From an uncultured Gammaproteobacteria bacterium (lineage in GTDB: Bacteria; Pseudomonadota; Gammaproteobacteria; JAADHQ01), in NCBI GenBank assembly GCA_947258655.1, contig CAMYJD010000007.1:1-64000 (forward strand): a stretch of DNA of 64,000 nt, read 5' to 3'. The notes under the pieces were generated by a model. It saw only the letters and a program-made list of their open reading frames with translations, did not search any database and was not told where the DNA came from. Numbering within the stretch: position 1 is the stretch's first letter; every line of letters begins with the position of its first letter. Positions 21,815 through 46,372 of the stretch are shown piece after piece. The position numbers and the translations under genes are program-made.

Positions 21815-22026
21815 GAATCTGATTATTCCACTGGGCACAGAACCGCTACGCGGACGTATTGAAAAAAACCTTTCCGAACAGAACCTTATACCTTATTCAT
21901 AGGGTCACTGGCAATGCCTGCATGCTGTTTTTTTATCATCGGTGTGGATTTTTTAAATAAAAAAAGCCACGCCACAGAGCGGCAATACTTTACCTATCGC
22001 ACGCGCTCCAGTACCCTTACGCCCCT

Positions 22027-27612: not shown

Positions 27613-29244
27613 ATGAAGATGCCGGGCTGGAATATACTGGATACAACGGCCGGCATAGAATTCCAAATTCCTGAATGGCGGCCGCTGGCCTACTTCAATT
27701 ATTACCGCCTGGTGTTGTCCGGTCTATTCGTTGTGCTGTTTGCTACCGGCCCTACGCCGAGTCTGCTTGGCTCGCATAATCCTTCACTATTTCTGGGCAC
27801 TGCGGCCTTTTATCTGGTCTTTAGCCTGTTCAGCCTGTTCAGTATCTATGCGCGGGCACCCGGGTTTTCGACACAAACACAACTGCAGACCCTGGTCGAT
27901 ATAAGCGCACTAACCCTGTTGATGCATAGCAGTGGTGGCCTGACCACAGGCCTGGGGATCCTGCTGGTCATTGCGATTGCCGGCAGCAGTATGATCCTGG
28001 CGGGCCGGCTGGCGCTGATGTTTGCCGCTGTGGCATCGATCGCGATATTGATCGAACAGATCCATGCCCACCTCAATGAGTCGTTCGCGACCACGTCATA
28101 TACCCAGGCCGGCATTCTCGGCGCAACCTTTTTTGCCACGGCACTGCTATCACATGTCCTCGCCAGACGTATCCGCAAGAGCGAAGAACTGGCCGCACAA
28201 CGTGGCGTCGATCTCGCCAATATGCAGCAGGTCAATGAATACATTATCCAGAACATGGATGCCGGTATTATCGTCGTCGACCAGGACATGAATACACGCC
28301 TTGTCAATGAATCGGCCTGGCATTATCTGGGCATGCCCGAACTGAAGCAATACCAGCCGCTGGGCCAGGTCTCGGAAGAACTGGCCACACAACTGCGTGA
28401 TTGGAAACAGGACCCGGACGTCACCATCAAACCATTCCGGCCACATGCCAATGCCGCCAATATCCAGGCCAGATTCACTCCGCTCGGACAAGACCGGGAA
28501 AACGGCACACTAATCCTGCTGGAAGACTCCAGCCATGTCACCCAACAGCTGCAACAGATGAAACTGGCCTCCCTTGGCCGCCTGACCGCCAGTATCGCCC
28601 ATGAGATCCGCAATCCACTCGGAGCCATCAGCCATGCTGCGCAGCTGCTACAGGAGTCGCCCGGACTGGAAGGCGCAGACTACCGCCTGTCCGAGATCAT
28701 CCAGACCCACTCCGAACGCATGAACACGATTGTCGAGAACATCCTGCAACTGTCCCGACGTGACCGCACCAATCCGAAGATCATCGAACTGAAGGCCTGG
28801 ACCGAGGATTTCGCACGCGAGTTTTGCAATACCGAGCGCCTCGAGCCTTCCAGCATAAGCGTCGATATTTTCCCCGAAAATACCATGATCCAGATGGATA
28901 CCGGCCATCTGCATCAAATTCTGTGGAACCTGTGCCAGAACGCGATCAAGTATGGCCATGCTGATGGCCAACCCGTCAGGATCACACTCAGGGGCGGCAT
29001 TACCGAGGAATCCAGAGGGCCGTTTCTTGACGTCATTGATCCCGGCGAAGGCATATCGCCCGAGCTTGCCGAGCAAATATTCGAACCGTTTTTTACCACC
29101 AGTAACGAAGGCACCGGTCTTGGCCTGTATATCAGCAAGGAAATGTGTGAATGCAACAAGGCCAGAATCAGTTATCATGTGGTACCGGGTGGCGGTAGTT
29201 GTTTCCGCCTGTCCTTTTTTGATCCGAGACGAATCAAGCAATGA
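27613..29244 (+). CDS. pilS: Type IV pilus sensor histidine kinase PilS
   Basis: A 543-residue kinase. About six N-terminal membrane helices (to about residue 190) are followed by a short coiled region, a PAS-like domain (about 205-310, NMDAGIIVVDQDMNTRLVN), HisKA with the phosphorylated His330 (SIAHEIRNPLGA) and an ATPase domain (LCQNAIKYG, DPGEGI, TGLGLYIS). In Pseudomonas, PilS senses pilin in the membrane and controls PilR to set pilin transcription. Its stop overlaps the pilR start (ATGA), and the pilin genes with sigma-54-like promoters lie 5 kb away. Confidence 0.95.
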   Translation: MKMPGWNILDTTAGIEFQIPEWRPLAYFNYYRLVLSGLFVVLFATGPTPSLLGSHNPSLFLGTAAFYLVFSLFSLFSIYARAPGFSTQTQLQTLVDISALTLLMHSSGGLTTGLGILLVIAIAGSSMILAGRLALMFAAVASIAILIEQIHAHLNESFATTSYTQAGILGATFFATALLSHVLARRIRKSEELAAQRGVDLANMQQVNEYIIQNMDAGIIVVDQDMNTRLVNESAWHYLGMPELKQYQPLGQVSEELATQLRDWKQDPDVTIKPFRPHANAANIQARFTPLGQDRENGTLILLEDSSHVTQQLQQMKLASLGRLTASIAHEIRNPLGAISHAAQLLQESPGLEGADYRLSEIIQTHSERMNTIVENILQLSRRDRTNPKIIELKAWTEDFAREFCNTERLEPSSISVDIFPENTMIQMDTGHLHQILWNLCQNAIKYGHADGQPVRITLRGGITEESRGPFLDVIDPGEGISPELAEQIFEPFFTTSNEGTGLGLYISKEMCECNKARISYHVVPGGGSCFRLSFFDPRRIKQ

Positions 29245-30569
29245 GTGTACAACGCACCCTGATCATCGATGACGAACCGGATATCCGTGAGCTGCTTGAA
29301 CTGACCCTCAATCGCATGGGTATCGACACCGATGCGGCCGCCGACCTGGGCCAGGCCCGCACCATGCTGCAACACACGCACTATGACCTGTGCCTGACCG
29401 ACATGCGCCTGCCCGATGGCAATGGCATTGAACTGGTAGAATGGATCCAGCAACACCTGCCCAACCTGCCGGTCGCGGTCATCACGGCCCATGGCAATAT
29501 GGAACTGGCCGTACAGGCACTGAAGGCCGGCGCCTTCGACTTCGTATCCAAACCGGTCGACCTCGAAGACCTGCGCAACCTGGTACAGTCGGCACTGAAA
29601 CTGTCGAACACGGCCCATCAGGGCAAAAACCTGCGCAGCCGCCATGAACTACTTGGCGATTCCGCGCCGATGCAGAAAATCCGCGGCACCATCGCCAAAC
29701 TGGCGCGCAGCCAGGCTCCGGTCTATATCAGCGGCGAATCCGGTACCGGCAAGGAACTCGTCGCGCGACTGATCCATAACAAGGGCCCGAGGGCCGACCA
29801 CCCGTTCGTGCCGGTCAACTGCGGCGCGATCCCGAGCGAACTGATGGAGAGCGAATTCTTCGGCCACAAGAAAGGCAGCTTCACCGGCGCGATCAACGAC
29901 AAGGTTGGCCTGTTCCAGGCTGCTGATGGTGGCACACTGTTCCTCGATGAGGTTGCAGAACTACCAATGTCCATGCAGGTAAAACTGCTGCGCGCGATCC
30001 AGGAAAAGGCCGTGCGCCCGGTCGGCGAACACAAGGAAACACATGTCGATGTGCGCATCCTCAGCGCTACGCATAAAGACCTCGACAAACAGGTTACCGA
30101 TGGCCTGTTTCGTCAGGACCTGTACTACCGTCTGCATGTCATACAGTTGACCGTACCACCTCTACGGGAGCGTAGAGAGGATATCGTAATTCTGGCGCGT
30201 CACATCCTCAATAAAATAGCGGCTGCACATTCAACAAAAACACCCGAGATTGGCAAGGACGCATTAAATGCATTGCTTGCCTACCCATTCCCCGGCAATG
30301 TACGTGAACTTGAAAATATCCTTGAACGTGCGATCGCATTGTGTGAAGGCAGTGTGATTGAACCGGAAGATCTGCAACTGCCTGAGCATAATCAGACATC
30401 TGGACTGGAAAGTGCTTCACAACTGGATGAGTACATGGAAGACAAGGAAAAGCAGGCCCTGTTAGAGGCCCTGAAAAAAACACGTTATAATAAAACCGCA
30501 GCAGCTAAACTGTTGGGCATTAGTTACAGATCGATACGATATAAATTAAAGAAACTGGGCATAGAATAA
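29241..30569 (+). CDS. pilR: Sigma-54 response regulator PilR
   Basis: A 442-residue NtrC-type activator. The receiver domain has the phosphorylated Asp54 (LTDMRLPDGNG). The AAA+ domain has Walker A GESGTGKE at 165-172, the sigma-54 contact loop GSFTGA and the GGTLFLDEV Walker B. The C-terminal Fis-type helix-turn-helix (KTAAAKLLGISYRSIRYKLK) binds DNA. With PilS it should activate the two pilin promoters at 35.1 and 35.9 kb. The last 130 codons are richer in A and T than the rest. Confidence 0.96.
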   Translation: MSVQRTLIIDDEPDIRELLELTLNRMGIDTDAAADLGQARTMLQHTHYDLCLTDMRLPDGNGIELVEWIQQHLPNLPVAVITAHGNMELAVQALKAGAFDFVSKPVDLEDLRNLVQSALKLSNTAHQGKNLRSRHELLGDSAPMQKIRGTIAKLARSQAPVYISGESGTGKELVARLIHNKGPRADHPFVPVNCGAIPSELMESEFFGHKKGSFTGAINDKVGLFQAADGGTLFLDEVAELPMSMQVKLLRAIQEKAVRPVGEHKETHVDVRILSATHKDLDKQVTDGLFRQDLYYRLHVIQLTVPPLRERREDIVILARHILNKIAAAHSTKTPEIGKDALNALLAYPFPGNVRELENILERAIALCEGSVIEPEDLQLPEHNQTSGLESASQLDEYMEDKEKQALLEALKKTRYNKTAAAKLLGISYRSIRYKLKKLGIE

Positions 30570-30630: not shown

Positions 30631-32520
30631 TCAATCTGTGCTTACGCCCTCTTCAAAACGTTTTCCGATATCGTCTATAAATTCGGAATAATTCCTTCCT
30701 GTCTTATTGGAGACATTCACAGCCTTTTGGTAATAGATTTGCGCCTTGTCATACTGTTTATTGTCAATAAACCATTCGCTTACCAGAAATAGTGGCACTG
30801 GATTTTCATCAAATTGATAAAACGCAGCATCTAGCGCGGCCACAGCGTCATATAAACGGTTATCACGATGAAGGTAATGCGCCTTGTACATTAATAATTT
30901 CTGACGCGCTAGTTTGCTACGCACACGTGCCCGCAAAGCGTGGTCAACAAGGTCAATAAAATACATTGAATCAAACTTACAATGCTCATCCAGCCCGAGA
31001 TTAGCAAGATTCATAATAGCTTCGCTAGCATATAAATCCACAAGACTCTCCTTGTTCATGCTGATCTGGTTAAAATCATCGGCTTGCAAAGCCCCCTTCT
31101 GCATGCAATTCATATATAAAAGATTTACCTGGAAGCCTACGCCATCGAAACGTTTAAGCAAATGCCTGGCCCTTGCATAAAATCCATTCTCTGCATACAT
31201 ATTGGCCACAATCACTGCCAGCCTTCGGGAATCCGGTCGTTGTTTTTGCATATACAGATACATACTGTTCTCGGAACTCCATGCTTGCACACGAAAACCA
31301 AGCAATAGTGCTGCAAATATAACCACAAACACCGGAACGGCTTTCATAACCCACTCTTTTCGATGAAGCAACTTGACTAACAATATACCCAGGCATAGCA
31401 CTATCCCATAAGACGCCAGATAATTTCTGTGTTCAAACATGAGCTCCAATGGAAAAATAGTTGATTCAAGCACATGCGATGCAAAAAACATAAAAACACC
31501 TACCGCCAAGAGTGGGTATTTTTTCCTGGCTAAAACCGAACCAATCAGTAACGCAAGCAATAGCAGCAGCGAAAATAGCGTCTGCGGCGGAGACAGTAAA
31601 TTACTTGACACATTAATGTCATCATGAAAGAAACCAAAATTAGACGGTAGCGGGAAAAGAATCTGGACCAGATATAAGACCAAAACACGGAGTTGCGTAA
31701 GGACCCTTTCAATAAGTGTAAAGTCTCGTGTAGCATATCCGCGCAAGACCCAGTGATCAAAGTCAACAGAAAGAAAGTACAGCCCAATTACTAGTGGCAA
31801 AATCAAAAAGCCGGTAAATATTGCCAGCAGATACTTTTTCTGCCCCTCGACACTATAAAATCTGAAAACAAATACTTCGACAATTAAAAGCATCAATGGA
31901 AGCAGGATACCATTCTCTTTGCTGAATGCAGACATCGGAAAACACAGTAGAAAAGCCGCAAGGATGTATAGCCAACCTGAAGATATTTTACCCTTATCTA
32001 TGGCCTGCCTGCCGACGGTATAGGACAGCATACCCAGAAATATAAACAACGCCGACAACTGCGACATTCTCTGCACTGTATATAACACAGTACTAACTTG
32101 GAGTGGGTGTAATAACCATAGCGCAGTTACAAGCAAAGCAATATTGCGACTATCGCTTTTTGTATAAAAATTGCGACACAAACGCACGGTCAGCAGAAAG
32201 ATAACGATACCGATAACAATATGGATGAGCACATTGGTTAATTTCCAGTACCAGGTGTCATCCCCGTGCAACACTGCATTCAAGACAAATGTTGCCATCG
32301 AGACCGGACGACCCAGATAACCACTACGACTATGCAAATGCTCGCCGATATCAGTACTCGAAAAATCGGCAGCCAGCGAAAACAAGGGCGTTAATTGCGG
32401 ATTGTCATCCAGAAAGAACGGCCCCTTCAGACCCGGCAGATATATCGATACGCAAAGGGTAATGACAAGCGTGAGTAAAAGAGTGGTCTGGAAAGGATAT
32501 TTTACAGGAACAGGTTTCAT
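30631..32520 (-). CDS. TMTC-like multi-membrane protein with C-terminal TPRs, second of a tandem pair
   Basis: A 629-residue protein with about 11-12 membrane helices up to about residue 410 and a soluble C-terminal part with TPR-like repeats (AENGFYARARHLLKRF, DNKQYDKAQIYYQKAV). The first periplasmic loop has FFLDDNPQL and GRPVSMATFVLN. This resembles the Asp-containing loop and RP motif of the protein O-mannosyltransferase/TMTC (GT39-like) superfamily, which transfers a sugar from a lipid carrier. It starts at the base after its paralogue's stop. Its position next to pilin genes suggests a pilin or surface-protein glycosyltransferase, by inference. Function within the family is unproven. 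Confidence 0.75.
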   Translation of the reverse strand: MKPVPVKYPFQTTLLLTLVITLCVSIYLPGLKGPFFLDDNPQLTPLFSLAADFSSTDIGEHLHSRSGYLGRPVSMATFVLNAVLHGDDTWYWKLTNVLIHIVIGIVIFLLTVRLCRNFYTKSDSRNIALLVTALWLLHPLQVSTVLYTVQRMSQLSALFIFLGMLSYTVGRQAIDKGKISSGWLYILAAFLLCFPMSAFSKENGILLPLMLLIVEVFVFRFYSVEGQKKYLLAIFTGFLILPLVIGLYFLSVDFDHWVLRGYATRDFTLIERVLTQLRVLVLYLVQILFPLPSNFGFFHDDINVSSNLLSPPQTLFSLLLLLALLIGSVLARKKYPLLAVGVFMFFASHVLESTIFPLELMFEHRNYLASYGIVLCLGILLVKLLHRKEWVMKAVPVFVVIFAALLLGFRVQAWSSENSMYLYMQKQRPDSRRLAVIVANMYAENGFYARARHLLKRFDGVGFQVNLLYMNCMQKGALQADDFNQISMNKESLVDLYASEAIMNLANLGLDEHCKFDSMYFIDLVDHALRARVRSKLARQKLLMYKAHYLHRDNRLYDAVAALDAAFYQFDENPVPLFLVSEWFIDNKQYDKAQIYYQKAVNVSNKTGRNYSEFIDDIGKRFEEGVSTD

Positions 32521-34464
32521 CTATCGTTCTATATACTCTTTCCCGGTAATAGATTTATACATCTTCATATAATCCTTACGTTCAGTAGAGCTTGCCGTAG
32601 ATTCAAGCATGTTCACAACCACATCACGCGCCTCATCCAATTTACCTTCAACTTGTAAAACATGTGCATAGACCTTGGCGATACTGACGTGTTGCGGCAC
32701 TAAACTATATGCCTTTTTTGCATGATATTTCAACATTTCCATGTTGCGCATGTCACTGTAAAGTTTAGCAATCAGCAGATGCAAGACACCCTGATTATGG
32801 TCTGCCTGCAAATAGGGGTTCTTTAGCAGTGCTTCAACCATCAACAGCAATTGCTCCGGACCTTCCCAACGGTTTCTGCTTGCATCGGTAATATAAAATT
32901 TCATTTGCGACAAAATACTTATATAGATCCTGTTTTTTTCGAAAGCTGTAATCATTTCATTGAACATCTCCTTGGATAATTCCCCTTTACGGATATGTTC
33001 GAGTGACATGATCGTTATGTAAACGTTTGCATAAGGTCTCTCTGCAGCCAGTGCTGCCTGAATGGCCTCCCAGGCCTTATCATATTTCTGGTAAATAATA
33101 AAAGTACGCGCGAGCTCTACATTTGCACGATAGGAGCGCGGATGCCTGTCCGCCTCTTCAGCCACAAGACGGAATTCGGATGACCACTGTTCCGAGCGCA
33201 CAAAGGTCAAATACGCCAGTAATATTACAAGCACCGTCAATAACGCGGGCAGCAATTTCCTTAATTTAAGACTTCTGCTATAGATCTCGGCCATCAATAC
33301 CATTGCGGCAAATATCAGCCCGGCAGAAGGTAGATAATTGCGATGTTCATACGCAATTTCCAGTCCGATAACAGTCGACTCAATCAGATGACCCAATAAG
33401 AACCAGAGTAGACCAAAACTGATCAGTGGCCTGATATTTCTGAGAATAATGGCCAGCACGATAAACAGTACCACCCCAATTAGTGAAACAAGAGTAGTCG
33501 CTGGCTGTAAAAGGCCTTTTGAGATAGGAATGAAATCCAGATACAGACCCATGCCACCGATACTGGGAATAACGATCGAAGAGATGTATAACCAAAACAT
33601 TCGCAACTGGGTCATCAGGCGCTCCAGCATCGTAAAATCACGAAGCCGATACCCGCCCTCAAAGAAGGACGGATCATAGATTAGATAAGCTGCAAGCGAT
33701 GTAATAACCAGCACAAGCGTGACATACAACCACTTGACCAGCCTGCTGATAGCAACAAACCTTAAAGCAACTATTTCCGTTAGCAGACATAGCAACGGGA
33801 AAATAACGGCGTTTTCCTTGCTGAATATCGCCAATGGCCAGACCAACAATATAGCCGCCCACAAATAGCCATGCCCTTTCCGCCCCTGTAGTTGATCTAG
33901 ACGACATTTCAGATAAAAGACTAGGCCGATCAACATAAACAACATCGACATCTGCGCCATACGCTGGACGACATACATGACGGTGCTGACATTTAACGGG
34001 TGGATTAGCCAGACCAGTGTGGCCAGTAATGCAATATGGGTATGCATCCCGCCGACCACATTTTGTGACGTGGCTTGCGAGGCTCTCTGGGCAAGATGTT
34101 GGGCCTGCAACAATAATCGTAGCGCTGTGAACAGGACATAGCCGACGAGCAGATGGATAAACAGATTGGTGACTTTATACCAGTAGGGATCGAGGCCGGA
34201 AAAATAATAATTCAATGCAAAGGTAATTCTGGATATCGGCCTGCTGTAAAGACTGTAAACATTGGTTTTGATACTGACAAAACTCTGCTTCAGGGATTCC
34301 CAGCTCAACTCGCTGATATGTACATTTTTATTATTATAGATATTACTGTAATCATCATGCAGAAAAGAGCCCGGGAGTGCAGGATAAAATAACACAATCA
34401 CCAGCACAGCGATTGCCAACAATGACAGATTCAATTGCTTTCCGGGTGCAAGGTCTATGTTCAT
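32521..34464 (-). CDS. TMTC-like multi-membrane protein with C-terminal TPRs, first of a tandem pair
   Basis: A 647-residue paralogue of the downstream protein with the same plan. The first loop carries FLHDDYSNIYNN and SRPISRITFALN, then LFIHLLVGYVLF, aligning closely with GRPVSMATFVLN and VLIHIVIGIVIF of its neighbour. About 12 helices end near residue 425, followed by TPR-like repeats (IYQKYDKAWEAIQAAL, LYSDMRNMEMLKYHAKKAY). The Asp pair in the first loop is the likely catalytic site in a GT-C transferase reading. It lies 82 bases after the first pilin gene, behind that gene's terminator. Confidence 0.75.
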   Translation of the reverse strand: MNIDLAPGKQLNLSLLAIAVLVIVLFYPALPGSFLHDDYSNIYNNKNVHISELSWESLKQSFVSIKTNVYSLYSRPISRITFALNYYFSGLDPYWYKVTNLFIHLLVGYVLFTALRLLLQAQHLAQRASQATSQNVVGGMHTHIALLATLVWLIHPLNVSTVMYVVQRMAQMSMLFMLIGLVFYLKCRLDQLQGRKGHGYLWAAILLVWPLAIFSKENAVIFPLLCLLTEIVALRFVAISRLVKWLYVTLVLVITSLAAYLIYDPSFFEGGYRLRDFTMLERLMTQLRMFWLYISSIVIPSIGGMGLYLDFIPISKGLLQPATTLVSLIGVVLFIVLAIILRNIRPLISFGLLWFLLGHLIESTVIGLEIAYEHRNYLPSAGLIFAAMVLMAEIYSRSLKLRKLLPALLTVLVILLAYLTFVRSEQWSSEFRLVAEEADRHPRSYRANVELARTFIIYQKYDKAWEAIQAALAAERPYANVYITIMSLEHIRKGELSKEMFNEMITAFEKNRIYISILSQMKFYITDASRNRWEGPEQLLLMVEALLKNPYLQADHNQGVLHLLIAKLYSDMRNMEMLKYHAKKAYSLVPQHVSIAKVYAHVLQVEGKLDEARDVVVNMLESTASSTERKDYMKMYKSITGKEYIER

Positions 34465-34483: not shown

Positions 34484-34518
34484 CAAAAAAAGCGCTGCAC
34501 AAATAGGGCAGCGCTTTC
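34484..34518 (-). terminator. Rho-independent terminator of the first pilin gene
   Basis: AGCGCTGC at 34491 and GCAGCGCT at 34508 form a perfect stem around a 9-base loop, followed on the minus strand by seven T. It separates the pilin gene from the TMTC-like genes and would allow high pilin transcription with limited read-through. Confidence 0.92.
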
Positions 34519-34546: not shown

Positions 34547-34975
34547 TTAACGACAGTTTGACGGACGATACTTCGCGTCCAGGCCACCCGATGTACATGT
34601 CCACTCAACGCCTTTTGTAGACCCTGTACCGGAAAATATGATGTCATCGCCGGCAGTTGTATCACCACCTAGATCTTCAAATTGTACAGTGATAGTGCCA
34701 TTGTTACTATCGGTTCGAGTAACTGTAACACCCTGGACAATGTCAGTAGTGATGTCCGCGACACCGGATTCTGTTTGGTCCGGGAAATCGTTGTTTGACA
34801 GATAGTATTCAGAGACGGCCGTCTTCGCTGAAGAAGCAAAACCAATACCTTCTGTGACCTTGGCGCGGATTGTATAGTCCTGATAGGCCGGGATCGCAAT
34901 CGCGGCCAGGATACCGATGATCGCAACCACGATCATGAGTTCGATAAGGGTGAAACCCTGTTGTGTACGTTTCAT
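34547..34975 (-). CDS. pilA: Type IVa major pilin-like protein
   Basis: A 142-residue prepilin with leader MKRTQQG, cleaved before Phe8 by PilD. The conserved helix [20 protein letters not shown] contains Glu at mature position 5. The C-terminal disulfide loop runs from Cys in EWTCTSG to Cys in YRPSNCR. It is the polymerising subunit of type IV pili. A sigma-54-like promoter lies at 35100-35115 and a strong terminator follows. It is similar to the second pilin but divergent in the middle. Which of the two is the main subunit cannot be told from sequence. Confidence 0.95.
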
Positions 34976-35391: not shown

Positions 35392-35823
35392 CTAACGACA
35401 ATTACTGGGCCTGTATTTGCTAGGCACGGTACTCGCCGTTGAACACGACCATTCAACCAGGCTGGCGGAGCTGTCACCGAGACTCGTGAACTGTAAATTT
35501 TGTCCATCTGTTACAGAGGCACCGATGTCTCTATAAGAAATAGTCAGTACCGCGCTGTTCGTGGAATTCCTTGTTAATACAACACTTTTTACAATATCGG
35601 TGGATGAATTAGTGACACCTGCCTGTGTCTGAGTGGGCATGTTGTTATTTGAAAGAAAGAATTCTACAATCGAGGACTTTGCCGACAAGGCATAACTGAT
35701 ACCCTCAGTAATCTTCGCTCGCGTGACATAATCCTGGTATGCCGGAATCGCGATAGCAGCCAGAATTCCGATTATGGCAACGACAATCATAAGCTCAATT
35801 AGAGTAAAACCACGCTGTATCAT
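35392..35823 (-). CDS. Second type IVa pilin
   Basis: A 143-residue prepilin with short leader MIQRG and the same N-terminal helix [20 protein letters not shown]. It has a C-terminal disulfide loop (EWSCSTAS to YRPSNCR). The last eight residues, KYRPSNCR, are identical in both pilins, while the middle differs widely. It has its own sigma-54-like promoter at 35864-35879. Tandem divergent pilins occur in several gammaproteobacteria; this may be an alternative major subunit. Confidence 0.94.
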
Positions 35824-36199: not shown

Positions 36200-36800
36200 C
36201 AATACACCACTTAAACGAGACGACTTTTTGATATTTGCTGCCCTCCTGATTCAGGAGGATGAGATTGATGAGGTCATTGATCGCCTAAAGCCAGGATGGC
36301 TTGGGATGGTGTCTCAGGCACAGAGATTTGAAGCGGATTTCGCTGCATGAAAGAATATGCACAGCTCACATGTAGCCACTGTAAATTCAATCACGGCTGC
36401 AATTCATGCCAGTATGATTGCTGCGAGGATTGACCCCGGATGAGGTGAGAACATCAGCAATGACATTCTGTGCAACGATCAATGCCATTATCCACAGCCG
36501 TGCGATACCGGGTCTGGTCGATATAATCCATTCACCTTTAACTTAAATACCGATCAGATTGAGCAGAAAATCAGCGCTAGAACCAAAGCCATCGTTCCGG
36601 TGCAATTCGCTGGATATCCGGGTGAGATGGATAAAATCATGTCAATTGCACAGCAATATAGACTCAAGGTTATAGAAAACTATGCACATGCCATTGAAAG
36701 CAGTTACAAGGGCCAGGAACCGAGACATTTGCTGACTTTGGATACTTCAGTTTATGTGACGAAAAACCTCACCATCGGAGAGGGCGGTAAATATAAAAGT
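36200..36800 (+). pseudogene. Decayed DegT/DnrJ/EryC1/StrS sugar aminotransferase
   Basis: Translation in shifting frames gives family segments in the right order: EDEIDEVIDRLKPGWL, SQAQRFEADFAA, AAIHASMIAARIDPG, SAMTFCATINAIIHSR, FTFNLNTDQIEQKIS, AIVPVQFAGYPGEMDKI, KVIENYAHAIE and the PLP-lysine motif VTKNLTIGEGG. Stops and frameshifts interrupt it (for example TGA after FAA and after RIDPG), and the C-terminal half is missing. The intact enzyme would have made an amino sugar nucleotide for a surface glycan. It marks the left end of the glycan island. Confidence 0.88.
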
Positions 36801-36966
36801 CGATCTATAAAAAGATATGTAATTGTAGTATTTTGGATAGTATATTCTTTATATTCAGCTTGATTTTGGTTTATCGCGTGATCTTGTAATCGGACAGTAC
36901 ATGGCTTACTGTACGAAACCATTTTAAAAACATAATCCATCAGTCTAACTTGCATCAAGTCATCAC

Positions 36967-38244
36967 ATGAATTCAGATAATACTCAAACTAGGGAAGGCA
37001 AATGCAGACGGGTAGTTCTGACCGGCACTTATTGCTCGAAGAACAAGGGAGACGCCGCCATGCAGCAGGTTTTTGCAGCCGAGCTACAAAAACGATATCC
37101 CGAAGCAGAAGTAGTAATCGCCTCGCCCTTTCCTCAGCTTGATACCCCCTACTATGCTCATGTAACCGTAATACGAAGTCGCCGGCGAAACCTGCCACTC
37201 GCAACGCTACACTGGTTGATTCTGGACTTCATGCGCCTGCTTGGCTATACACCGCACCGCTACCCCATTGGTGAAGAGATCGACACGATGATTAATGCCG
37301 ATGCGATTGTCGACTTGAGCGGTGATATGCTAACCGAAGACTATGGCTTTCTGGTAGGCTACTCACACTTCCTACCCTTGCTACAAGCACAAGCATTAGG
37401 ACGACAAGTCGTCATTTGTGCACAATCGGTTGGCCCATTTCGCAGACTGGCGCCGCTGGCGAAACGCATTTTCTCCCGCGCTAAACTGGTAACCATCCGC
37501 GAAACACTCAGCACTAACCTACTAGCTGAGCTGGCAGAACCCGCTATCTCGCCCGTACACACGGCTGACCTGGCATTTATGCTAAAACCAGCACCCTTGA
37601 TTCGTATCGATACTATCCTCACCGCCGAAAACATTCCGCCTCACACTCGGCCACGATTAGGCGTATCCGTAAGTGCCTTGCTGGCAAACAAAACCAACCG
37701 GAACCTCGGCACAAGCGACCAGGACAAGCTGGCGATTTTTGCCGAGGCACTGGACCAGGTAGTGGACAAGCTTGGCGTTGAAGTCCTGCTAGTACCGCAT
37801 GTTTATGGGCCCCGCCCGTCAGGTGATGACCGGCAGGTGGGCCAACGCATGGCGGCACAAATGCAGCATACCCCGCTGTGCCTCAATGGCGAATACCGCC
37901 CGGAAGAGATCAAGGGCATAATTGCAAGCTGTGATGCCTTTGTTGGCTGTCGCATGCATGCCAATATCGCTGCACTCGACAATGGTATCCCGGTACTCGC
38001 CATTGGCTACAGTCACAAGACCCGTGGTATTCTTAATGACCTTGGACTATCAGAATGGGTTATTCCCGTAAACGATCTCGAAGCGCAACGGCTCAGCGCG
38101 TCTATTATAAAACTGTTTGCAGAGGCAACGACCTATCGGCAGCAATTGTCTACAACGTTGCCGGAAATGAAAAAACGAGCACAGCAAAACATCGAAGCAG
38201 TAATACAACTAATAATTGAGCGACCAGGAGTAGCGGCAAAATGA
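36967..38244 (+). CDS. Polysaccharide pyruvyl transferase family protein
   Basis: A 425-residue protein of the PF04230 family. The N-terminal LTGTYCSKNKGDAAMQQVF and the C-terminal GCRMHANIAALDNGIPVLAIGYSHKT regions are typical. Members transfer pyruvate from phosphoenolpyruvate onto sugars of capsules or exopolysaccharides, and some have diverged to other activities. No ribosome site is clear before the ATG, and no membrane segment is seen. It is the first intact gene of the island and overlaps the next by 4 bases (ATGA). Confidence 0.82.
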   Translation: MNSDNTQTREGKCRRVVLTGTYCSKNKGDAAMQQVFAAELQKRYPEAEVVIASPFPQLDTPYYAHVTVIRSRRRNLPLATLHWLILDFMRLLGYTPHRYPIGEEIDTMINADAIVDLSGDMLTEDYGFLVGYSHFLPLLQAQALGRQVVICAQSVGPFRRLAPLAKRIFSRAKLVTIRETLSTNLLAELAEPAISPVHTADLAFMLKPAPLIRIDTILTAENIPPHTRPRLGVSVSALLANKTNRNLGTSDQDKLAIFAEALDQVVDKLGVEVLLVPHVYGPRPSGDDRQVGQRMAAQMQHTPLCLNGEYRPEEIKGIIASCDAFVGCRMHANIAALDNGIPVLAIGYSHKTRGILNDLGLSEWVIPVNDLEAQRLSASIIKLFAEATTYRQQLSTTLPEMKKRAQQNIEAVIQLIIERPGVAAK

Positions 38245-40127
38245 ATCGCTTTGCCGGATTAACCGGCACTGTTGGAAAAGAGAGCGAGCGCGAAGGCCGA
38301 CTGCGCATGGCGTTCGGCAACGACCAAACCGACCTGACAATAATCAGTCCAATACCCGGAGTGTCTCTAGCCTGGTGTGGTAACAACGATCTGACTGCAG
38401 TGGCGAACACGGCGAATAACTTTGCACTCGCACATGGCTCAGCATACCGACTACATGGCACAAACGCCCCGTCGATCGCCGTGGACAATGTGCACGCTTT
38501 GGCCGAATTGCTGCTGGAACGAACAAGCTTGGGCGATGCACTCCTGGATGGACTGGACGGCTCCTTCATTAGCGTAACGGGAACCCGGCACGGCGGCTTC
38601 GCTTTGGCAGGCGACCCAAGCGGAAACCGTGCCCCCTATTTTTCCATTGAGAATAATGAACTCGCATTTACCAACCACCCGCTCGTGTGCGCTCGGCTAC
38701 TAAACAAACCACAGATAGACCGGGGCCTGGAAGACTTCTTGTTGATTTATGGTTTTCTCCCCGATGGCCGCACTATCTACAAGGGCGTACATCAGTTGAC
38801 TCCCCAAACCATGCTCATGTTCGAAAACGGGCAGTGCAAGCATATGCCCATGAACCTGGCACAACAAGATACTTCCTATGAGGAGGCACCTGAATCCGAA
38901 GAGTCACTCTATGATCGCCTCTATGACGTCCTCCTTGGTTGCATGGAAGACCAACTTGCATCAACTGCCGAAGTCGGCGTACTCCTCGGCGGCTTCGACT
39001 CGGCGCTTGTTGCATCTTTGTTATGTCGCCTGGGCAAGCGCGTGCATACATATTCATTTCATTATGCCGATATGCAATATAATCAACCGCACACTGATAC
39101 CTTGTCTTCATACCTCGGCTGCAAGCATAGCTGGATAAATATTACCCCAGATGTAATCGCAACCGGACTGGAACAATATGCCGAGCACTGTGTGCAACCC
39201 ACCAACTGGCTCAACTATATTATTCAGACCATACATGTGTGTGAGCATATGCGGCGCGATGGAATTGATTATGCGTATTCCGGCGATGGCTGTGATGCGG
39301 TTTTCCTTGGCTACCCCGGCACATACAAGCGCACCCGCGCATTCGCGAACCTACCACAACTGCCCACTGGCTTGATAGATATACTCATACGCGCATTAAA
39401 CTGGCCGAGCCTGGACCGTCGCATAGGTCACCCCTACCGGGTTGCGATGAACCTACTGCGCGCAATGGCCCGGCCAATGCCGAGCCGGGCATTCCTGACA
39501 TTCCGCGTAATGGATGAAATGACCGTAAAGTCACTGCGCAAGACTAATAGCGTGAAACAAGACGAAACACTCGAGTCAATCGTGCACCGCTTGGCCGAAC
39601 CATTTACTGACCTGTCAATTCAACGTCTCGGATATGCTGCCAAGAGCCTGGTATCACCGAATCGTACCAAATTGATTGCCAGCACCGATGTTACGGGCGT
39701 GCGCGTGCATACACCCTATTTACACCCAACTCTACGCAAATTCGCCGCCACAATCCCCGATCACCTGCTGCGTGAACAGACACAAAACGCACTGCAGGAT
39801 CCAGGCAAGATTTGTCTGTCACGTATGGCAGCAAAACATCGACTATTGCCGACAGAGATCATTCAACAACAAAAACTTGCCGCGATTGACAGTCCTATTG
39901 ACAACTGGTTCGCTACCGAATTGCGTCCCTCGCTTGAGCGGGCCATCAAGGGGCTTCCGTTCAGTACAGATACCCAGCATACCAATTCACTTATCGAGAC
40001 AACAGCGGCGGAAAAATTCTACAAACGCTACATTGGCTCGACGAGTGTAATCAGTGACGCTATCTCATTACTCGCAACATATGGCGCGATGGCGGGCGCA
40101 CTACATGACAACGGAGCGCAGCAATGA
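38241..40127 (+). CDS. Asparagine synthetase-like protein with a dead glutaminase domain
   Basis: A 628-residue AsnB homologue. The N-terminal domain has the Ntn-glutaminase shape (ALLDGLDGSFISVTG, DPSGNRAPYF) but begins MNRFAGLTG where active enzymes begin MCGIAG, so the nucleophile Cys2 is missing. The synthetase domain has the pyrophosphate loop as VGVLLGGFDSALVAS, lacking the first Ser of SGGxDS, and then YAYSGDGCDAVFLGYPGTYKR. Such homologues in glycan clusters may form amides or adenylate an acid, as beta-lactam synthetase does without glutamine. The substrate is unknown. It is coupled to its neighbours by 4-base overlaps on both sides. Confidence 0.85.
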   Translation: MNRFAGLTGTVGKESEREGRLRMAFGNDQTDLTIISPIPGVSLAWCGNNDLTAVANTANNFALAHGSAYRLHGTNAPSIAVDNVHALAELLLERTSLGDALLDGLDGSFISVTGTRHGGFALAGDPSGNRAPYFSIENNELAFTNHPLVCARLLNKPQIDRGLEDFLLIYGFLPDGRTIYKGVHQLTPQTMLMFENGQCKHMPMNLAQQDTSYEEAPESEESLYDRLYDVLLGCMEDQLASTAEVGVLLGGFDSALVASLLCRLGKRVHTYSFHYADMQYNQPHTDTLSSYLGCKHSWINITPDVIATGLEQYAEHCVQPTNWLNYIIQTIHVCEHMRRDGIDYAYSGDGCDAVFLGYPGTYKRTRAFANLPQLPTGLIDILIRALNWPSLDRRIGHPYRVAMNLLRAMARPMPSRAFLTFRVMDEMTVKSLRKTNSVKQDETLESIVHRLAEPFTDLSIQRLGYAAKSLVSPNRTKLIASTDVTGVRVHTPYLHPTLRKFAATIPDHLLREQTQNALQDPGKICLSRMAAKHRLLPTEIIQQQKLAAIDSPIDNWFATELRPSLERAIKGLPFSTDTQHTNSLIETTAAEKFYKRYIGSTSVISDAISLLATYGAMAGALHDNGAQQ

Positions 40128-41134
40128 CCATGAAAGCAGAGGCATGGTACAGACGCACTAGCTTCCGTATTGCCGCCTCAGTGGTGCTCTTGCTGCTTTG
40201 CCTCAGTCTGGTTAATCCTGGCGAGTTCGCACAGGTATTGATCAATATCAACCTCTGGTATCTGCTAGTCGCATTGTTGCTCAATATTATTGGCACGGTA
40301 TTGGCCAGGGCCTGGATTGCACACCTGACTACGCATGCCTCCGGTCTAACACTCGGCTTCGCTGAGCTTGTGCGGATCAATCTCATCGCACGCTTTTACA
40401 CAATCGCATTGCCACGCGGCGCCTCGGCCGCCATTCGCTGGCATCATTACCGCAAGGGTGGCTCAGGGCACGCGGCGGCGGCGCTGCTGATCTTCGAAAA
40501 CATGGTGTCAATCTTCACCCTGTTTTTGAGTGCCGCAGTTATCCTCGGCCTCGAGTCCAGAGAGGCTGTTACCTCTGCACAGATATTACTTCCCGTGACC
40601 TGGCTAGGTACATTGGCCACTGCACTGATACTCCTTCCGTTCATGTATCAACCCAGCGCTAAAATATTTCGCAAGCTACTGCAACCATTACTTTTACGAC
40701 CGGGTCGCCTCGCGGATGCGATCAGCAAGCTACTGACAGCCATAAAAAGCTATCATGACATCCCTATTCGACGAGTAGGATCAATCTTTTTTGTCAGCCT
40801 GTTCGGTTATGTATTTTTCATACTTAGTGCATGGGTTTTGGCAGAAGGAATGGCACTTGGCTTGAGTCTTGCCGCGATTGCATGGATTCGTTCAATCACC
40901 TTGCTGATCGCACTGGTACCTATAACTATCGCCGGACTCGGCTTGCGTGAAGGCGTCCTCATTGCACTATTAAGCAACTACGGAATATCAGCATCAACTG
41001 CATTTGCTTACGCAATAACATCGTTTGCCATTCAACTGGTGCTGGGCTTGTTCGGCGCAATACTCGAGACACATCGCTTACTTGTAAACAAGGAAGATAC
41101 ACGCGCCAATGAATCAGACAAGGAGACATCATGA
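40124..41134 (+). CDS. Flippase-like membrane protein (lysylphosphatidylglycerol synthase TM/AglD family)
   Basis: A 336-residue membrane protein with about eight helices, resembling the UPF0104 transmembrane region of MprF and AglD. LYTIALPRG-like residues appear as FYTIALPRGASAAIRWH, and VPITIAGLGLREGVLIALL is a typical motif. In glycan clusters this family is thought to move lipid-linked sugars or act with a lipid-linked glycosyltransferase. It overlaps both neighbours by 4 bases. Confidence 0.83.
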   Translation: MTMKAEAWYRRTSFRIAASVVLLLLCLSLVNPGEFAQVLININLWYLLVALLLNIIGTVLARAWIAHLTTHASGLTLGFAELVRINLIARFYTIALPRGASAAIRWHHYRKGGSGHAAAALLIFENMVSIFTLFLSAAVILGLESREAVTSAQILLPVTWLGTLATALILLPFMYQPSAKIFRKLLQPLLLRPGRLADAISKLLTAIKSYHDIPIRRVGSIFFVSLFGYVFFILSAWVLAEGMALGLSLAAIAWIRSITLLIALVPITIAGLGLREGVLIALLSNYGISASTAFAYAITSFAIQLVLGLFGAILETHRLLVNKEDTRANESDKETS

Positions 41135-41754
41135 GACTACGCGCACGACCAGTGGTCAATCTTAATCGCATACGCAAGGCGAAGATGATCGAGGCCTTTC
41201 TTCATGATGCGTTCGATCAAACACCAAGCGGCCTTCGTGTGCTCGACATCGGCTCTGGTAACGGTGACATTTGTGCGTATTTTTCTGCAAATAATTTCAC
41301 TGTAGGTGTTGATATTCAGGACCAATTCAGGCCTGAATATCATGGATTACCACACTGCGTGGCTCGCTCAGAGGCCTTGCCCTTTGCAGATGCCAGCTTT
41401 GACGTAGTCATCTCTCACCATGTAATTGAACATGTAGACAATCACGATCTTCACATCTCTGAAATTCACCGTATTCTGGATGCCGACGGTGTCTGCTATC
41501 TGGGAACGCCGAACCTGAGCTCACCCTTCATGCGTGGCCACATCGGTAATCCGATGGTGCTCAAATATTCACAAATGCGATCACTATTCGAGCGCAATGG
41601 TTTCGAGGTGGAAGAATACTACCTACGCTGGCTGCATGAACCGGACCGTTATCATTGCGAGACTCGTCTGGGACGTTTCATCCCCACCCCACTCCTCCAT
41701 CTGATGCGATACTGGTTTCCCAGCCAGTGCTTTTTACTCAGACACCGTCTTTAA
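41131..41754 (+). CDS. Class I SAM-dependent methyltransferase
   Basis: A 207-residue methyltransferase with motif I VLDIGSGNGDICAYF, the acidic VGVDIQDQ at the end of strand 2, and DVVISHHVIEHVDNHD as motif III/IV. Its N-terminus is basic. It probably methylates a sugar or lipid-linked intermediate. The last bases overlap the convergent glycosyltransferase gene by 4 bases, so the plus-strand operon ends here. Confidence 0.88.
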   Translation: MRLRARPVVNLNRIRKAKMIEAFLHDAFDQTPSGLRVLDIGSGNGDICAYFSANNFTVGVDIQDQFRPEYHGLPHCVARSEALPFADASFDVVISHHVIEHVDNHDLHISEIHRILDADGVCYLGTPNLSSPFMRGHIGNPMVLKYSQMRSLFERNGFEVEEYYLRWLHEPDRYHCETRLGRFIPTPLLHLMRYWFPSQCFLLRHRL

Positions 41755-42923
41755 ATCAATTCATCGTAAAGCGCGGAATGTGCAGAGGCAACCTCCGCCC
41801 AGGAATTAGCCCGAATACATTGCAGTTGTGCTTCACGATCGGCTTGCAAACCGTTGGGCCGAGATAATTTTTCGATCATGATCGAGGCCAGCGCATTGTC
41901 ATCACCCGGGGTGACAATCCAGCTCGGATCAATAGCCAGATCCGGCAACCCGCCCACATCGGTTACTAAAACCGGACACCCTTGTGCGGCTGCACGACAG
42001 GCAGCGCCGGACTGACTACTAAAACGAACATAAGGAAATACTGCAAATTCCGATAACCTGATAAGGGCGTCAATTTTTACATCTGATTGAAATCCTTCGA
42101 GCATGTGCACCCGTTCAGCCAACCCCGGTTGTGCTAGCGCAGTGTGCAGGCGCTCTGCGTCATGGTCGGTGCCGAGCATCTTTGCAACAATACGAGCACC
42201 AAACCCAGAGTGGCCTGTCCACAGACGCCCGGCAATGACGAGATCCACATCGGCTAGCTTTTCTACTACATGCGACCATGCAGAAAGTAGAACATCGACA
42301 CCCTTGTAACCACGAAGATTGCCGAATACACAGACATAACGCCGCGCAGGGTCGAGTCCGAGCAGGGCATGGTCCCCGGCTTCAATCGTAGCTGGCGACG
42401 ACTCGACACAGGCTCCATGAGGAATGGTATGGATACGTTCAGCGTCTACGTCAAAGCGTGAGGTAAGTATTGCAGCTCCACGCGCGTTGTGAACAACCAG
42501 AGTGTCGGACAGATTCACCAGCTTTTGCTCGCATGGCCTGGTCCAGTCAAGCACTTCATGTGCGCCAGGATTGTGCATCGTTACAACTACACGCTTCCCC
42601 TTGCGCCGGGCCATACCGGCAAGTGGTGCAAGATAACACGCCATCGGAGCGGACCAATGCTGTATGTGTATGATGTCGGCATCCATATTCGCCACGCGGC
42701 GCCACGACCATGGTCTTCCCCAATGTAACTCGCCAACCGATTTCGACATATCTTTTTTTGCTGCAGGGTGTAAAAAGCCAGGATAAGCTGCACGGTAATC
42801 CACCGGGTACACCTGTAAATCCTGGATCGCATGGAGGGCTTCTAACAGGGGGCTGCAGTATGGACTAAGTCCACGAACTGGCTGACCAAATTGACAGACT
42901 AATAAAACACTCGCTGCACTCAT
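41751..42923 (-). CDS. GT4-type glycosyltransferase (GT-B fold)
   Basis: A 390-residue transferase with an N-terminal VCQFGQPVRGLSPYCSPLL acceptor-domain start and a C-terminal sugar-nucleotide domain. FGNLRGYKGVDVLLSAW and EFAVFPYVRFSSQSGAACRAAAQGCPVLVTDVGGLPD are spread over about 220-340, with the position of the catalytic Glu taken by Gly or Ser in the usual EPFG-like region. Sugar donor and acceptor are unknown. It is convergent with the methyltransferase and lies 141 bases from the GT2 gene. Confidence 0.85.
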   Translation of the reverse strand: MSAASVLLVCQFGQPVRGLSPYCSPLLEALHAIQDLQVYPVDYRAAYPGFLHPAAKKDMSKSVGELHWGRPWSWRRVANMDADIIHIQHWSAPMACYLAPLAGMARRKGKRVVVTMHNPGAHEVLDWTRPCEQKLVNLSDTLVVHNARGAAILTSRFDVDAERIHTIPHGACVESSPATIEAGDHALLGLDPARRYVCVFGNLRGYKGVDVLLSAWSHVVEKLADVDLVIAGRLWTGHSGFGARIVAKMLGTDHDAERLHTALAQPGLAERVHMLEGFQSDVKIDALIRLSEFAVFPYVRFSSQSGAACRAAAQGCPVLVTDVGGLPDLAIDPSWIVTPGDDNALASIMIEKLSRPNGLQADREAQLQCIRANSWAEVASAHSALYDELI

Positions 42924-43064: not shown

Positions 43065-43931
43065 TCAGTTATCTTGCCTACTGAACATGAGCGTCGTAAT
43101 TTGCTCAGAAATCAAACCAATCAGAAAAACTATGACGGATGTTACCAGTAGCAGTGCGCTCATATTGGTAAAGCGGGCTTCCGTTAAATAGGTAAATATA
43201 TAGTACCCACATCCCAAGATAAAAAATCCCAGACTGATTGGCAAGTATAGTTTCAGTGGCGAATATAATGTTCCGACCTTGAAGATAATTAACAGGAATC
43301 TGGCGCCATCCTTGAAGAGTCTGATATGGCTTTTCCCTTTCCTGGAAAACACCTTTATTGGCACATAGCCTACGGAATAACCCGCACGAAAAAAAGACAT
43401 CGTTATCGTAGTTGGATACGAGAAACCGTTGGGCAGTAAAAAGAGAAATTGCCTGAACTTCTTTGCATTGACAACACGAAACCCGGATGTAAGGTCACGA
43501 ACAGAATGTCCCGACATCCAACTGGCGAGATAATTATATATTTTGTTCGCGACTCCCCTGGACACACTGGCCTGAGACTTAAAATTCCTGGACCCTACAA
43601 CCATATGAAAACCACAAAGATATTTCTCCATGAGCTTTTCAATATCATCCGGATTATGTTGACCATCAGCATCCATAAACACAAGAACTTCCCCTGATGC
43701 GGCCCTGGCCCCTGTTTTAATGGCTGCCCCGTTCCCCTTGGCATAAGGATGTGTAATTACCCTGACATCACTTGCATTGCAGACTTCCAGAGTATTATCA
43801 GTTGAACCGTCATTCACTACTATAATTTCTGTATCAGGATATTTTTTTCGCAAAACAGGTAACAAATCTGCGAGATGCTCTGCTTCATTTTTTGCCGGCA
43901 GAATTATTGATATATTGACCGCTTTCATCAT
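43065..43931 (-). CDS. GT2-family glycosyltransferase, dolichol-phosphate mannosyltransferase type, membrane-anchored
   Basis: A 288-residue protein. The GT2 catalytic domain has SIILPAKNEAEHL, VVNDGSTDNT and the DxD motif in FMDADGQHN. The C-terminus has two membrane helices (about 218-243 and 255-278). The layout matches transferases that load a sugar onto undecaprenyl or polyprenyl phosphate. Such a lipid-phosphate sugar would be the donor for TMTC/PMT-like transferases at 30.6-34.5 kb, a link that is inferred. Two ATGs are adjacent (43931 and 43928); either may be used. Confidence 0.9.
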   Translation of the reverse strand: MMKAVNISIILPAKNEAEHLADLLPVLRKKYPDTEIIVVNDGSTDNTLEVCNASDVRVITHPYAKGNGAAIKTGARAASGEVLVFMDADGQHNPDDIEKLMEKYLCGFHMVVGSRNFKSQASVSRGVANKIYNYLASWMSGHSVRDLTSGFRVVNAKKFRQFLFLLPNGFSYPTTITMSFFRAGYSVGYVPIKVFSRKGKSHIRLFKDGARFLLIIFKVGTLYSPLKLYLPISLGFFILGCGYYIFTYLTEARFTNMSALLLVTSVIVFLIGLISEQITTLMFSRQDN

Positions 43932-44653: not shown

Positions 44654-46372
44654 ATGGCAACAACTAACCCGAAAATACAACTAAGTGGATTGGCACGCCG
44701 ATTGGTGCATGATGGCCTTCTTGCAGAAGAGATAGCCGAAACTGCGCTGAAAGAAGCCAGGAAAAAAAAGATAACACTGGTTACCCACCTGGTTGATAAC
44801 AAGATCCTGAACGGCAAGCAAATAGCGAACGCCGCATCGCAGGAATTTGGCGTCCCGTTGTTTGACATCAACAGCCTCGATCTCGAGGCCTCGGCCAGTT
44901 ACATCAAACTGGTCGATGAAAAACTGATCCGTAAGCATAATACACTGCCATTGATGCAAAGGGGTAACCGCCTGTTTGTCGCCATATCAGATCCGACCAA
45001 TCTGCAGGCGCTGGACGAGATCAAGTTTAATACGGGTATCAATACCGATGCCGTGCTGGTTGAGGAAGAACAACTCAAGGCAGTCCTGGAAAAAGCACTC
45101 GAGGCGCAGGCTGAGCCCATGGAAGGCTTGCTGGATGAAGATCTCGATAACCTGTCGATTGAAGGCGGAGAAGATACTGGCGCCAAGGACGAGGACGAGG
45201 GTGATATCGATGATACACCCGTGGTACGTTTCGTTAACAAGGTGCTGCTGGATGCGATCAATAAGGGCGCCTCGGATATCCACTTCGAGGCCTATGAAAA
45301 GACATACCGTGTGCGCTTCAGACAGGACGGCATACTGCATGAAATAGCGGCACCGCCGATCAATCTTGCCTCGCGTGTAACTGCGCGTATCAAGGTCATG
45401 GCACGCATGGACATCGCTGAACGCCGTGTCCCGCAGGACGGTCGTATCAAGATGAATATTTCCAAGACACGTGCAGTGGATTTTCGTGTCAACACCTGCC
45501 CGACTCTGTTCGGCGAAAAGATTGTTATGCGTATCCTCGATTCCAGCGCCGCGAATCTGGATATCGATGTTCTCGGTTATGAGGATCACCAGAAAAAGCT
45601 GTTTCTCGATGCCATCCATAAGCCCTGGGGACTGGTGCTGGTTACCGGCCCGACCGGTAGTGGTAAGACCGTGTCGCTGTATACCGCACTGAACATCCTG
45701 AACAAACCGGACAAGAATATCTCGACTGCGGAAGACCCGGTGGAAATCAACCTGCCCGGTATCAACCAGGTGCACATGAACGTCAAGACCGGTATGACCT
45801 TCTCGGCGGCATTACGCGCCTTCCTGCGTCAGGACCCGGATATCATCATGGTTGGTGAGATTCGTGACCTGGAAACGGCTGAAATCGCGATCAAGGCCGC
45901 GCAAACGGGCCATCTGGTTCTGTCGACATTGCATACCAACGATGCACCGCAGACATTGACACGTCTGGTCAATATGGGAATCCCGCCGTTTAATATCGCC
46001 TCATCCATCAGCCTGATCATCGCCCAACGCCTGGCCCGGCGCCTGTGCTCGCATTGCAAAAAGGAAGAAAAAATTCCAGCGGAGGCACTATTGGCGGAAG
46101 GTTTCGTACAGGATGAAATTGCCGACCTGAAGGTCTTTGGTCCGATAGGCTGCGATCAATGCACCAACGGTTACAAAGGCCGTGTGGGCGTTTACCAGGT
46201 CATGCCGGTGTCTGAAGAAACCGGCAGAATCATCATGGCTGGGGGTAATGCACTCGAGATCGCCAAGCAGGCCAAAGAGGAAGGCATCAATGACCTGCGT
46301 CGCTCTGGTTTAAATAAAGTTAAAGAAGGGCTAACGAGTCTGGAAGAAATCAACCGGATTACAAAGGATTAA
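44654..46372 (+). CDS. pilB: Type IV pilus extension ATPase PilB
   Basis: A 572-residue hexameric ATPase driving pilus assembly at the inner membrane. The MshEN-like N-domain is followed by an acidic linker (about 155-187, EDTGAKDEDEGDIDD) and the C-terminal ATPase with SDIHFEAYEK, Walker A GPTGSGKT at 332-339, Walker B IIMVGEIRD, His box STLHTNDA and zinc cysteines (CSHC, CDQC). It is followed 3 bases later by pilC. It is separated from the pilins by the glycan island. Confidence 0.97.
   Translation: MATTNPKIQLSGLARRLVHDGLLAEEIAETALKEARKKKITLVTHLVDNKILNGKQIANAASQEFGVPLFDINSLDLEASASYIKLVDEKLIRKHNTLPLMQRGNRLFVAISDPTNLQALDEIKFNTGINTDAVLVEEEQLKAVLEKALEAQAEPMEGLLDEDLDNLSIEGGEDTGAKDEDEGDIDDTPVVRFVNKVLLDAINKGASDIHFEAYEKTYRVRFRQDGILHEIAAPPINLASRVTARIKVMARMDIAERRVPQDGRIKMNISKTRAVDFRVNTCPTLFGEKIVMRILDSSAANLDIDVLGYEDHQKKLFLDAIHKPWGLVLVTGPTGSGKTVSLYTALNILNKPDKNISTAEDPVEINLPGINQVHMNVKTGMTFSAALRAFLRQDPDIIMVGEIRDLETAEIAIKAAQTGHLVLSTLHTNDAPQTLTRLVNMGIPPFNIASSISLIIAQRLARRLCSHCKKEEKIPAEALLAEGFVQDEIADLKVFGPIGCDQCTNGYKGRVGVYQVMPVSEETGRIIMAGGNALEIAKQAKEEGINDLRRSGLNKVKEGLTSLEEINRITKD

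Follow-up and report, generated by a model that had tools for sequence, protein, structure and literature searches.

What do two adjacent genes for large membrane proteins do beside the pilin genes of an uncultured gammaproteobacterium? The question is raised by a stretch of 64,000 nucleotides (positions 1 to 64,000 of contig CAMYJD010000007.1, assembly GCA_947258655.1; the window in the following), in which two open reading frames (ORFs), here termed transferases A and B, lie within a cluster of type IV pilus (pil) genes. A first-pass annotation of the bare sequence had suggested that both are GT-C glycosyltransferases with tetratricopeptide repeat (TPR) tails which, together with a GT2 glycosyltransferase of the same locus, could O-glycosylate pilin or a surface protein. 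According to the analyses described here these genes very probably represent a pilin-glycosylation cassette, in which A and B would transfer a sugar from a GT2-made lipid to pilin. The elements concerned are:

30631–32520, minus strand: GT-C transferase B, 629 amino acids (aa), a paralogue of A
32521–34464, minus strand: GT-C transferase A, 647 aa, with a membrane domain (~1–440), D37-D38 in the first periplasmic loop and a TPR tail (~441–647)
34489–34517, minus strand: terminator-like hairpin (10-bp stem and T tract) between pilin 1 and transferase A, a possible attenuator
34547–34975, minus strand: type IVa pilin 1, 142 aa, likely acceptor protein (Pfam Pilin, E 7.7e-23)
35392–35823, minus strand: type IVa pilin 2, 143 aa, likely acceptor protein (Pfam Pilin, E 1.9e-16)
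43065–43931, minus strand: GT2 with hydrophobic C-terminal segments, similar to polyprenyl-phosphate-sugar synthases (AglJ/PpgS/ArnC/DPMS relatives), predicted donor maker

Both transferase ORFs are intact and abut each other. As the first-pass annotation had described, they are situated between pilR (29241–30569) and the two pilin genes, with the 3' end of pilR downstream in gene direction and the pilins upstream, and the GT2 lies at the expected place. The block is enclosed by the pil cluster, between pilSR (27613–30569) and pilB (44654).

Computation assigns both proteins the same fold and topology. A and B are paralogues (31% identity over 494 aa, E 2e-67) and carry the motifs originally pointed out, HDDY and RPIS in A, LDDN and RPVS in B. 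AlphaFold2 models, built with 102 (A) and 64 (B) natural relatives as input, reached a predicted local distance difference test score (pLDDT) of 93.2 for A and 94.7 for B and comprise a GT-C membrane domain (~1–440) followed by a TPR tail (~441 to the end). Comparison with VIA-align matched residues ~3–440 of A to STT3 (Z 19.2), Pmt4 (16.6), AglB (15.9), ArnT (15.5), PglB (14.7) and AftB (13.8), and B to STT3 (19.4), the Pmt1-Pmt2 complex (18.6), Pmt4 (17.7) and ArnT (16.9). The GT-C fold was hence found in the predicted models of both proteins at Z 13.8–19.4 over 300–360 residues; a Z of about 13 can be background among helical proteins, yet the top rows are nearly all GT-C enzymes. With Foldseek alone the top matches were TPR and other helical-repeat proteins, and the GT-C matches emerged in the VIA-align comparison of the Foldseek candidates. 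The first-pass annotation had named the lack of a GT-C fold or of a conserved Asp pair as grounds to abandon its proposal; the fold is present in A and B, and D37-D38 are invariant in all 102 aligned relatives. Its count of about 12 helices is better read as ~11 transmembrane (TM) helices, with juxtamembrane helices in addition. The TPR tail is genuine: the family profile matches TPR structures at E 3.7e-59 and the predicted fold is that of TPRs; single-sequence Pfam TPR scores are weak in A and B themselves.

Besides the Asp pair, R75, W152, Q167, R168, K216, R282, H374, R375 and S444 (A numbering) are identical in 102/102 family members. Predicted inner loops contain 18.3 Lys and Arg per 100 residues versus 2.8 in outer loops, conserved active-site-like residues being left out. 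Because of this charge bias the catalytic loops with the Asp pair and the TPR tail are placed in the periplasm and the N-terminus inside. Acidic residues in the first periplasmic loop, a mark of the GT-C superfamily, are thereby found in every member, with the side taken from the charge bias.

The family is widespread. A scan of genome contigs yielded at least 585 relatives, from which the 80 contig loci nearest to the query, mostly gamma- and betaproteobacterial, were kept. A separate survey covered 276 gammaproteobacterial genomes, drawn evenly and free of the nearest-to-query bias of the contig loci; 78 of them (28%) encode the family. No Pfam family was matched reproducibly by the membrane domain (52 members), which also matched no sequence in the PDB even at E 10 and no NCBIfam model; NCBIfam matches of whole members were nearly all to TPR models. 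PHROGs gave no match for the family, and neither did phage, plasmid and E. coli collections. No prior description was found in a literature search with most subscription journals outside its coverage.

Gene linkage, co-occurrence, terminator layout and pilin-tail covariation connect the family with pilins and with the GT2. Among the 70 loci with enough upstream sequence, 58 have the end of a pilin gene within 500 nt upstream of the GT-C gene on the same strand. PF00114 pilins occur in 76/78 family-bearing genomes versus 107/198 others. For 51 of 64 loci the gap between pilin and GT-C gene was found to include a hairpin resembling a terminator, compared with 0.4 expected from base shuffles, and in the window this gap folds at -24.4 kcal/mol (z -4.2). 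The layout is that of the known pilin-accessory cassettes of Pseudomonas aeruginosa, in which the terminator tunes expression of the accessory gene (PMC11841053). Behind a highly expressed pilin a terminator is to be expected on other grounds too.

The coupling to the GT2, claimed at the outset like that to pilins, is strong. GT2 orthologues, 53–65% identical to the window copy, are present in 74 of the 276 genomes; GT-C and GT2 genes occur together in 72, GT-C alone in six, GT2 alone in two and neither in 196 (Fisher odds ratio 1176, p 2e-56, ignoring phylogeny). In 60/74 the GT2 is encoded within 10 kb of the GT-C gene, and in 45 it shares the strand of that gene at a distance of no more than 500 nt. 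All but one of the GT2-bearing genomes contain a single GT2 above threshold; for the GT-C gene the number of matches ranges from one to five, fragments included. The GT2 resembles the AglJ and PpgS models and the solved structures of DPMS, ArnC and sll0501. Its matches to the AglJ, PpgS and PgfS synthase models (63 bits for the window GT2 against PgfS) all stay below the equivalog cutoffs. Judged by these similarities, the GT2 most likely makes a polyprenyl-phosphate donor. An LPG_synthase_TM/flippase-like protein is encoded at 40124–41134 (plus strand) of the window; similar proteins were seen in L030 (14706–15656) and near the cassette in some other loci. It is a weak candidate for the donor flippase.

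Distances between pilin head domains correlate with those between the adjacent GT-C proteins (47 loci; Mantel r 0.37, p 0.001; r 0.38 with GT2 distance removed), but not with GT2 distances (r 0.06, p 0.15). After removal of the membrane part, the TPR tail still covaries with pilin (partial r 0.22–0.25, p 0.001 throughout, with 35, 45 or 57 loci), whereas the membrane part after removal of the tail gives 0.06–0.13; partial Mantel tests have a known tendency to be liberal. These correlations are modest and owe something to linkage; they would be the pattern expected of a tail that reads pilin.

The surroundings of the cassette comprise the following features:

27613–29244, plus strand: PilS sensor kinase, conserved flank, assigned by sequence (75–85% identity to congener orthologues)
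29241–30569, plus strand: PilR response regulator, conserved flank, assigned by sequence (75–81% identity to congener orthologues)
36222–36812, plus strand: decayed remnant of a DegT/DnrJ/EryC1-type aminotransferase (45% identity over 205 aa to L084; in-frame stops)
36967–42923, mixed strands: glycan-type genes between the pilins and the GT2, namely pyruvyl transferase, Asn-synthase-like amidotransferase, the LPG_synthase_TM (flippase-like) protein, methyltransferase (plus strand) and GT4 (minus strand); relation to the cassette uncertain
44654–46372, plus strand: PilB-type ATPase (T2SSE and MshEN), other edge of the pil cluster

Two genomes of the same genus (L125 and L126) were compared with positions 22000–44000 of the window. 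PilS, PilR, SucC and SucD are 74–91% identical, the pilins 38–49%, the GT-C proteins about 30% and the GT2 54–55%. The cassette of pilin, GT-C and GT2 is hypervariable between congeners within conserved flanks, which suggests cassette exchange or diversifying selection. The congeners share the order pilS-pilR-pilin-pilin-GT-C-GT2 in one direction with one GT-C gene; the window differs in the orientation of its pilin/GT-C block, which is reversed with respect to pilSR, and in the presence of two GT-C copies.

Some observations from single loci are added here. Intact homologues of the decayed aminotransferase come directly after the GT-C gene in L067, L072, L077, L078, L082, L084 and L091, a hint that these systems involve an amino sugar. 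In genome G037 (C1:1405144–1407764), near pilin genes, in-frame stops interrupt the GT-C gene as well as its GT2; this cassette is apparently decaying as a whole, as if GT-C and GT2 went together. In several Xanthomonadales loci a protein of ~660 aa without Pfam match adjoins the GT2 (L070:14163–16145, L092:16647–19592), and in L092 the GT2 is in one frame with ~700 further residues. In L074, L044 and L052 a GT-C gene and an adjoining or close GT2 were found with no pilin detected in the locus, which makes non-pilin targets possible there. A weak excess of the sigma54 consensus is spread over the whole window and was not used.

We infer the donor chemistry, the acceptor, the direction of transfer and the roles of the tail and the second copy as follows. 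On the inner face of the inner membrane, the GT2 would link one sugar to undecaprenyl phosphate, and a flippase would turn the sugar-lipid over. The active site of A and B would lie in their periplasmic loops and comprise the Asp pair and conserved Lys and Arg; there the two proteins would remove the sugar from the lipid and hand it to pilin that awaits assembly and still resides in the inner membrane. Binding and selection of the pilin may fall to the periplasmic TPR tail. The tandem copies would share one donor and probably either differ in their sites of action or work one after the other.

This last point departs from the first-pass annotation, which had assigned the tandem copies to the two different pilins. 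That each copy is specific for one pilin appears unlikely to us, even though the window itself has two pilins and two copies, eight surveyed loci show the same numbers and the pilin-tail covariation suggests selectivity. One pilin and one copy were counted in 27 loci, and the numbers are mismatched in others: nine loci have two pilins and one copy, two have one pilin and two copies, and one has one pilin and three copies. Both cassette-bearing congeners searched encode two pilins and a single GT-C copy. In the tree A and B belong to separate, old clades, which rules out a recent A/B duplication. A pairs with L023, a single-copy locus, and B clusters with copies that stand second or third in the tandem loci L035, L059 and L100 (98% in the Shimodaira-Hasegawa-like approximate likelihood ratio test, SH-aLRT); L035 and L059 have a single pilin each. 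Since there is one GT2 for several copies, successive addition or action at different sites is the simpler reading, and the copies probably share one donor in this way instead of being allotted one per pilin. The proposed glycosylation of pilin is strongly supported by its context, with pilin linkage and GT2 coupling, and the GT-C fold and periplasmic Asp pair hold; the assignment of one copy per pilin was not borne out.

Several known systems resemble the cassette in part. TfpW of the P. aeruginosa Pa5196/PA7 group IV cassette (PMC11841053) is a GT-C pilin glycosyltransferase encoded downstream of pilA with a terminator between pilin and accessory gene, and here, too, the GT-C gene stands directly downstream of pilin in a pilin cassette. 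By its description, TfpW differs in adding D-arabinofuranose, and the available text of that source describes neither a TPR tail nor a dedicated adjacent GT2. The novelty originally claimed is therefore smaller than stated, a GT-C pilin glycosyltransferase in a pilin cassette having been reported (PMC11841053); the separation from the known TfpO/PglL ligases holds, as Wzy_C (PF04932, the O-antigen-ligase-type domain) matched neither the window proteins nor the 52 membrane domains at E<=1. In the genome as a whole Wzy_C gave two weak matches below the cutoff, both on contigs other than that of the window, and PglL_A gave none in a search run without a positive control. PilO/TfpO, TfpM, PglS and PglL likewise modify pilin in the periplasm, with linkage to the pilin gene for TfpO, TfpM and PglS, but contain an O-antigen-ligase-type domain and move preassembled glycans (PMC12645811). 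Unlike these O-oligosaccharyltransferases, the family described here has a GT-C fold, a TPR tail and a GT2 partner. A conserved C-terminal Ser/Thr acceptor as for TfpO was considered and rejected: the window pilins end in Arg, and the alignment has no universal Ser/Thr column.

Another close precedent is offered by TMTC1-4, eukaryotic O-mannosyltransferases of cadherins, which share with the family an N-terminal GT-C domain bearing DD in the first outer loop (EL1), ~11 TM helices and a C-terminal TPR region on the active-site side, and whose targets are adhesive surface proteins (PMC7801869). The family's motif order DD, RP, KE, D, E.R.Y resembles the TMTC motifs M1, M2, M4, M5 and M7 (PMC7801869). 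M1 (DD in EL1) is present in 102/102 members, and of M2 (SHKSYRP in EL1) RP alone is kept (R75 102/102, P76 97/102). For M4 (KE(T/Q)xxT in EL3) K216 is found in 102/102 and E217 in 96/102, with mostly Asn next. M7 (ERxxY in EL5) reads EHRNY, with the Arg shifted by one (E373 101/102, H374 and R375 102/102, Y377 98/102). The TPR fold is C-terminal and, by charge bias, on the outer side. M3 (RxD in EL2) is lacking, as the invariant R168 is followed by Met and a mostly small residue instead of Asp, and so is M5 (DW in EL4), with D310 in 96/102 and no Trp. PF08409 (DUF1736, the TMTC loop between TM7 and TM8) matched 0/52 members at E<=1; a PF08409 survey of 60 genomes gave no match anywhere, the controls likewise being without match. 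Because PF08409 is missing and two motifs fail, the family was not filed as TMTC, from which it also differs in being bacterial and tied to pilins. That it is a diverged branch of TfpW or TMTC and not a separate GT-C family seems rather doubtful to us: the genomic niche is that of TfpW, and motif order and the C-terminal TPR on the same membrane side (PMC7801869) recall TMTC, against which the absent PF08409 and the incomplete RxD and DW motifs count. This is a matter of classification and does not conflict with the functional reading.

Further parallels concern single components. In PgfS-PgfM1-PgfE-PgfM2 of Streptococcus mutans a GT2 and two multi-pass membrane proteins modify a surface adhesin encoded next to them, and deletions of PgfM1 and PgfM2 suggest successive steps; this system is Gram-positive, acts on Cnm/WapA and includes an epimerase, and TPR tails are not mentioned in the available text (PMC5856776). 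Three-component periplasmic glycosylation (GtrA/GtrB/Gtr and GT136 systems) combines a polyprenyl-phosphate-sugar synthase, as the GT2 is predicted to be, with a GT-C transferase; it differs in its O antigen acceptor, and its cluster includes a dedicated flippase (PMC11127046), of a kind not found here beyond the weak LPG_synthase_TM candidate. FlmG, the flagellin glycosyltransferase of Caulobacter, has a TPR region fused to a glycosyltransferase, and the N-terminal domain that contains the TPR is reported to bind the filament subunit and to determine its choice (PMC7591256). It is a precedent for a TPR that chooses the substrate, although FlmG is cytoplasmic, of GT-B type and acts on flagellin.

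Several points weigh against pilin glycosylation. No pilin lies within 500 nt in 12/70 loci, and ten of these have no pilin motif anywhere in the locus; these copies might work in trans or have other target proteins. The linked pilins share no single conserved Ser/Thr, and their Ser/Thr enrichment is small (23.2% versus 20.1% in 23 comparison pilins, p 0.005). The genome contains no GtrA flippase, no flippase gene recurs across the surveyed loci, and the window GT2 is 8.6 kb away from the transferases. Co-occurrence and Mantel statistics ignore phylogeny, and co-transfer of adjacent genes could feed the pilin-transferase correlation.

Two other functions were weighed. The GT-C proteins might modify another surface polymer (lipopolysaccharide, exopolysaccharide) or other exported proteins, pilin proximity being regulatory or historical. 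The pyruvyl transferase, GT4, methyltransferase and amidotransferase genes of the locus, the recurrence of GT4-type genes near many loci, the GT-C copies without a pilin in the locus and the modification of O antigen by GT-C and GT2 in three-component systems (PMC11127046) would fit. We nevertheless give this a small probability, as a pilin is immediately upstream in 58/70 loci across gamma- and betaproteobacteria, covariation is with pilin and not with the GT2, a protein-binding TPR tail would be odd on a polysaccharide enzyme, and pilin, GT-C and GT2 stay while the flanking glycan genes vary. Very improbable is a role as pilin chaperones or assembly factors (TfpY-like) with catalysis lost. 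It agrees with the pilin-accessory layout and with the pilins of TfpY and TfpZ strains, reported as unmodified (PMC11841053); the invariant Asp pair, K216, R282 and EHRNY motif within a GT-C fold and the near-obligate GT2 partner speak against it.

Pilin glycosylation remains the preferred reading, and a more detailed version of it is possible, which we put forward tentatively. The TPR tail would read the pilin, the TMTC-like GT-C domain would transfer one polyprenyl-phosphate sugar, tandem copies drawing on the same donor would lengthen or multiply the glycan, and a hypervariable cassette made up of pilin, tail and enzyme would be subject to exchange; the family would then be a widespread, unnamed class and a bacterial parallel to adhesin-specific TMTC glycosylation. 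Pilin glycans protect P. aeruginosa pili from phages (PMC11841053), and because they shield pili in this way, the hypervariability of the cassette within conserved flanks has a natural candidate explanation. If the proposed function is true, a large family unnamed in the Pfam, NCBIfam and PDB data searched, present in 28% of the sampled gammaproteobacterial genomes and in many betaproteobacteria, would receive a function, and pilin glycosylation would be predicted in hundreds of species without any record of it. The transferase would be simpler than the O-antigen-ligase type, with a single sugar, its own donor synthase and its own recognition domain, and it would become testable, as a general question, whether the choice of the protein to be glycosylated resides in a detachable TPR tail.

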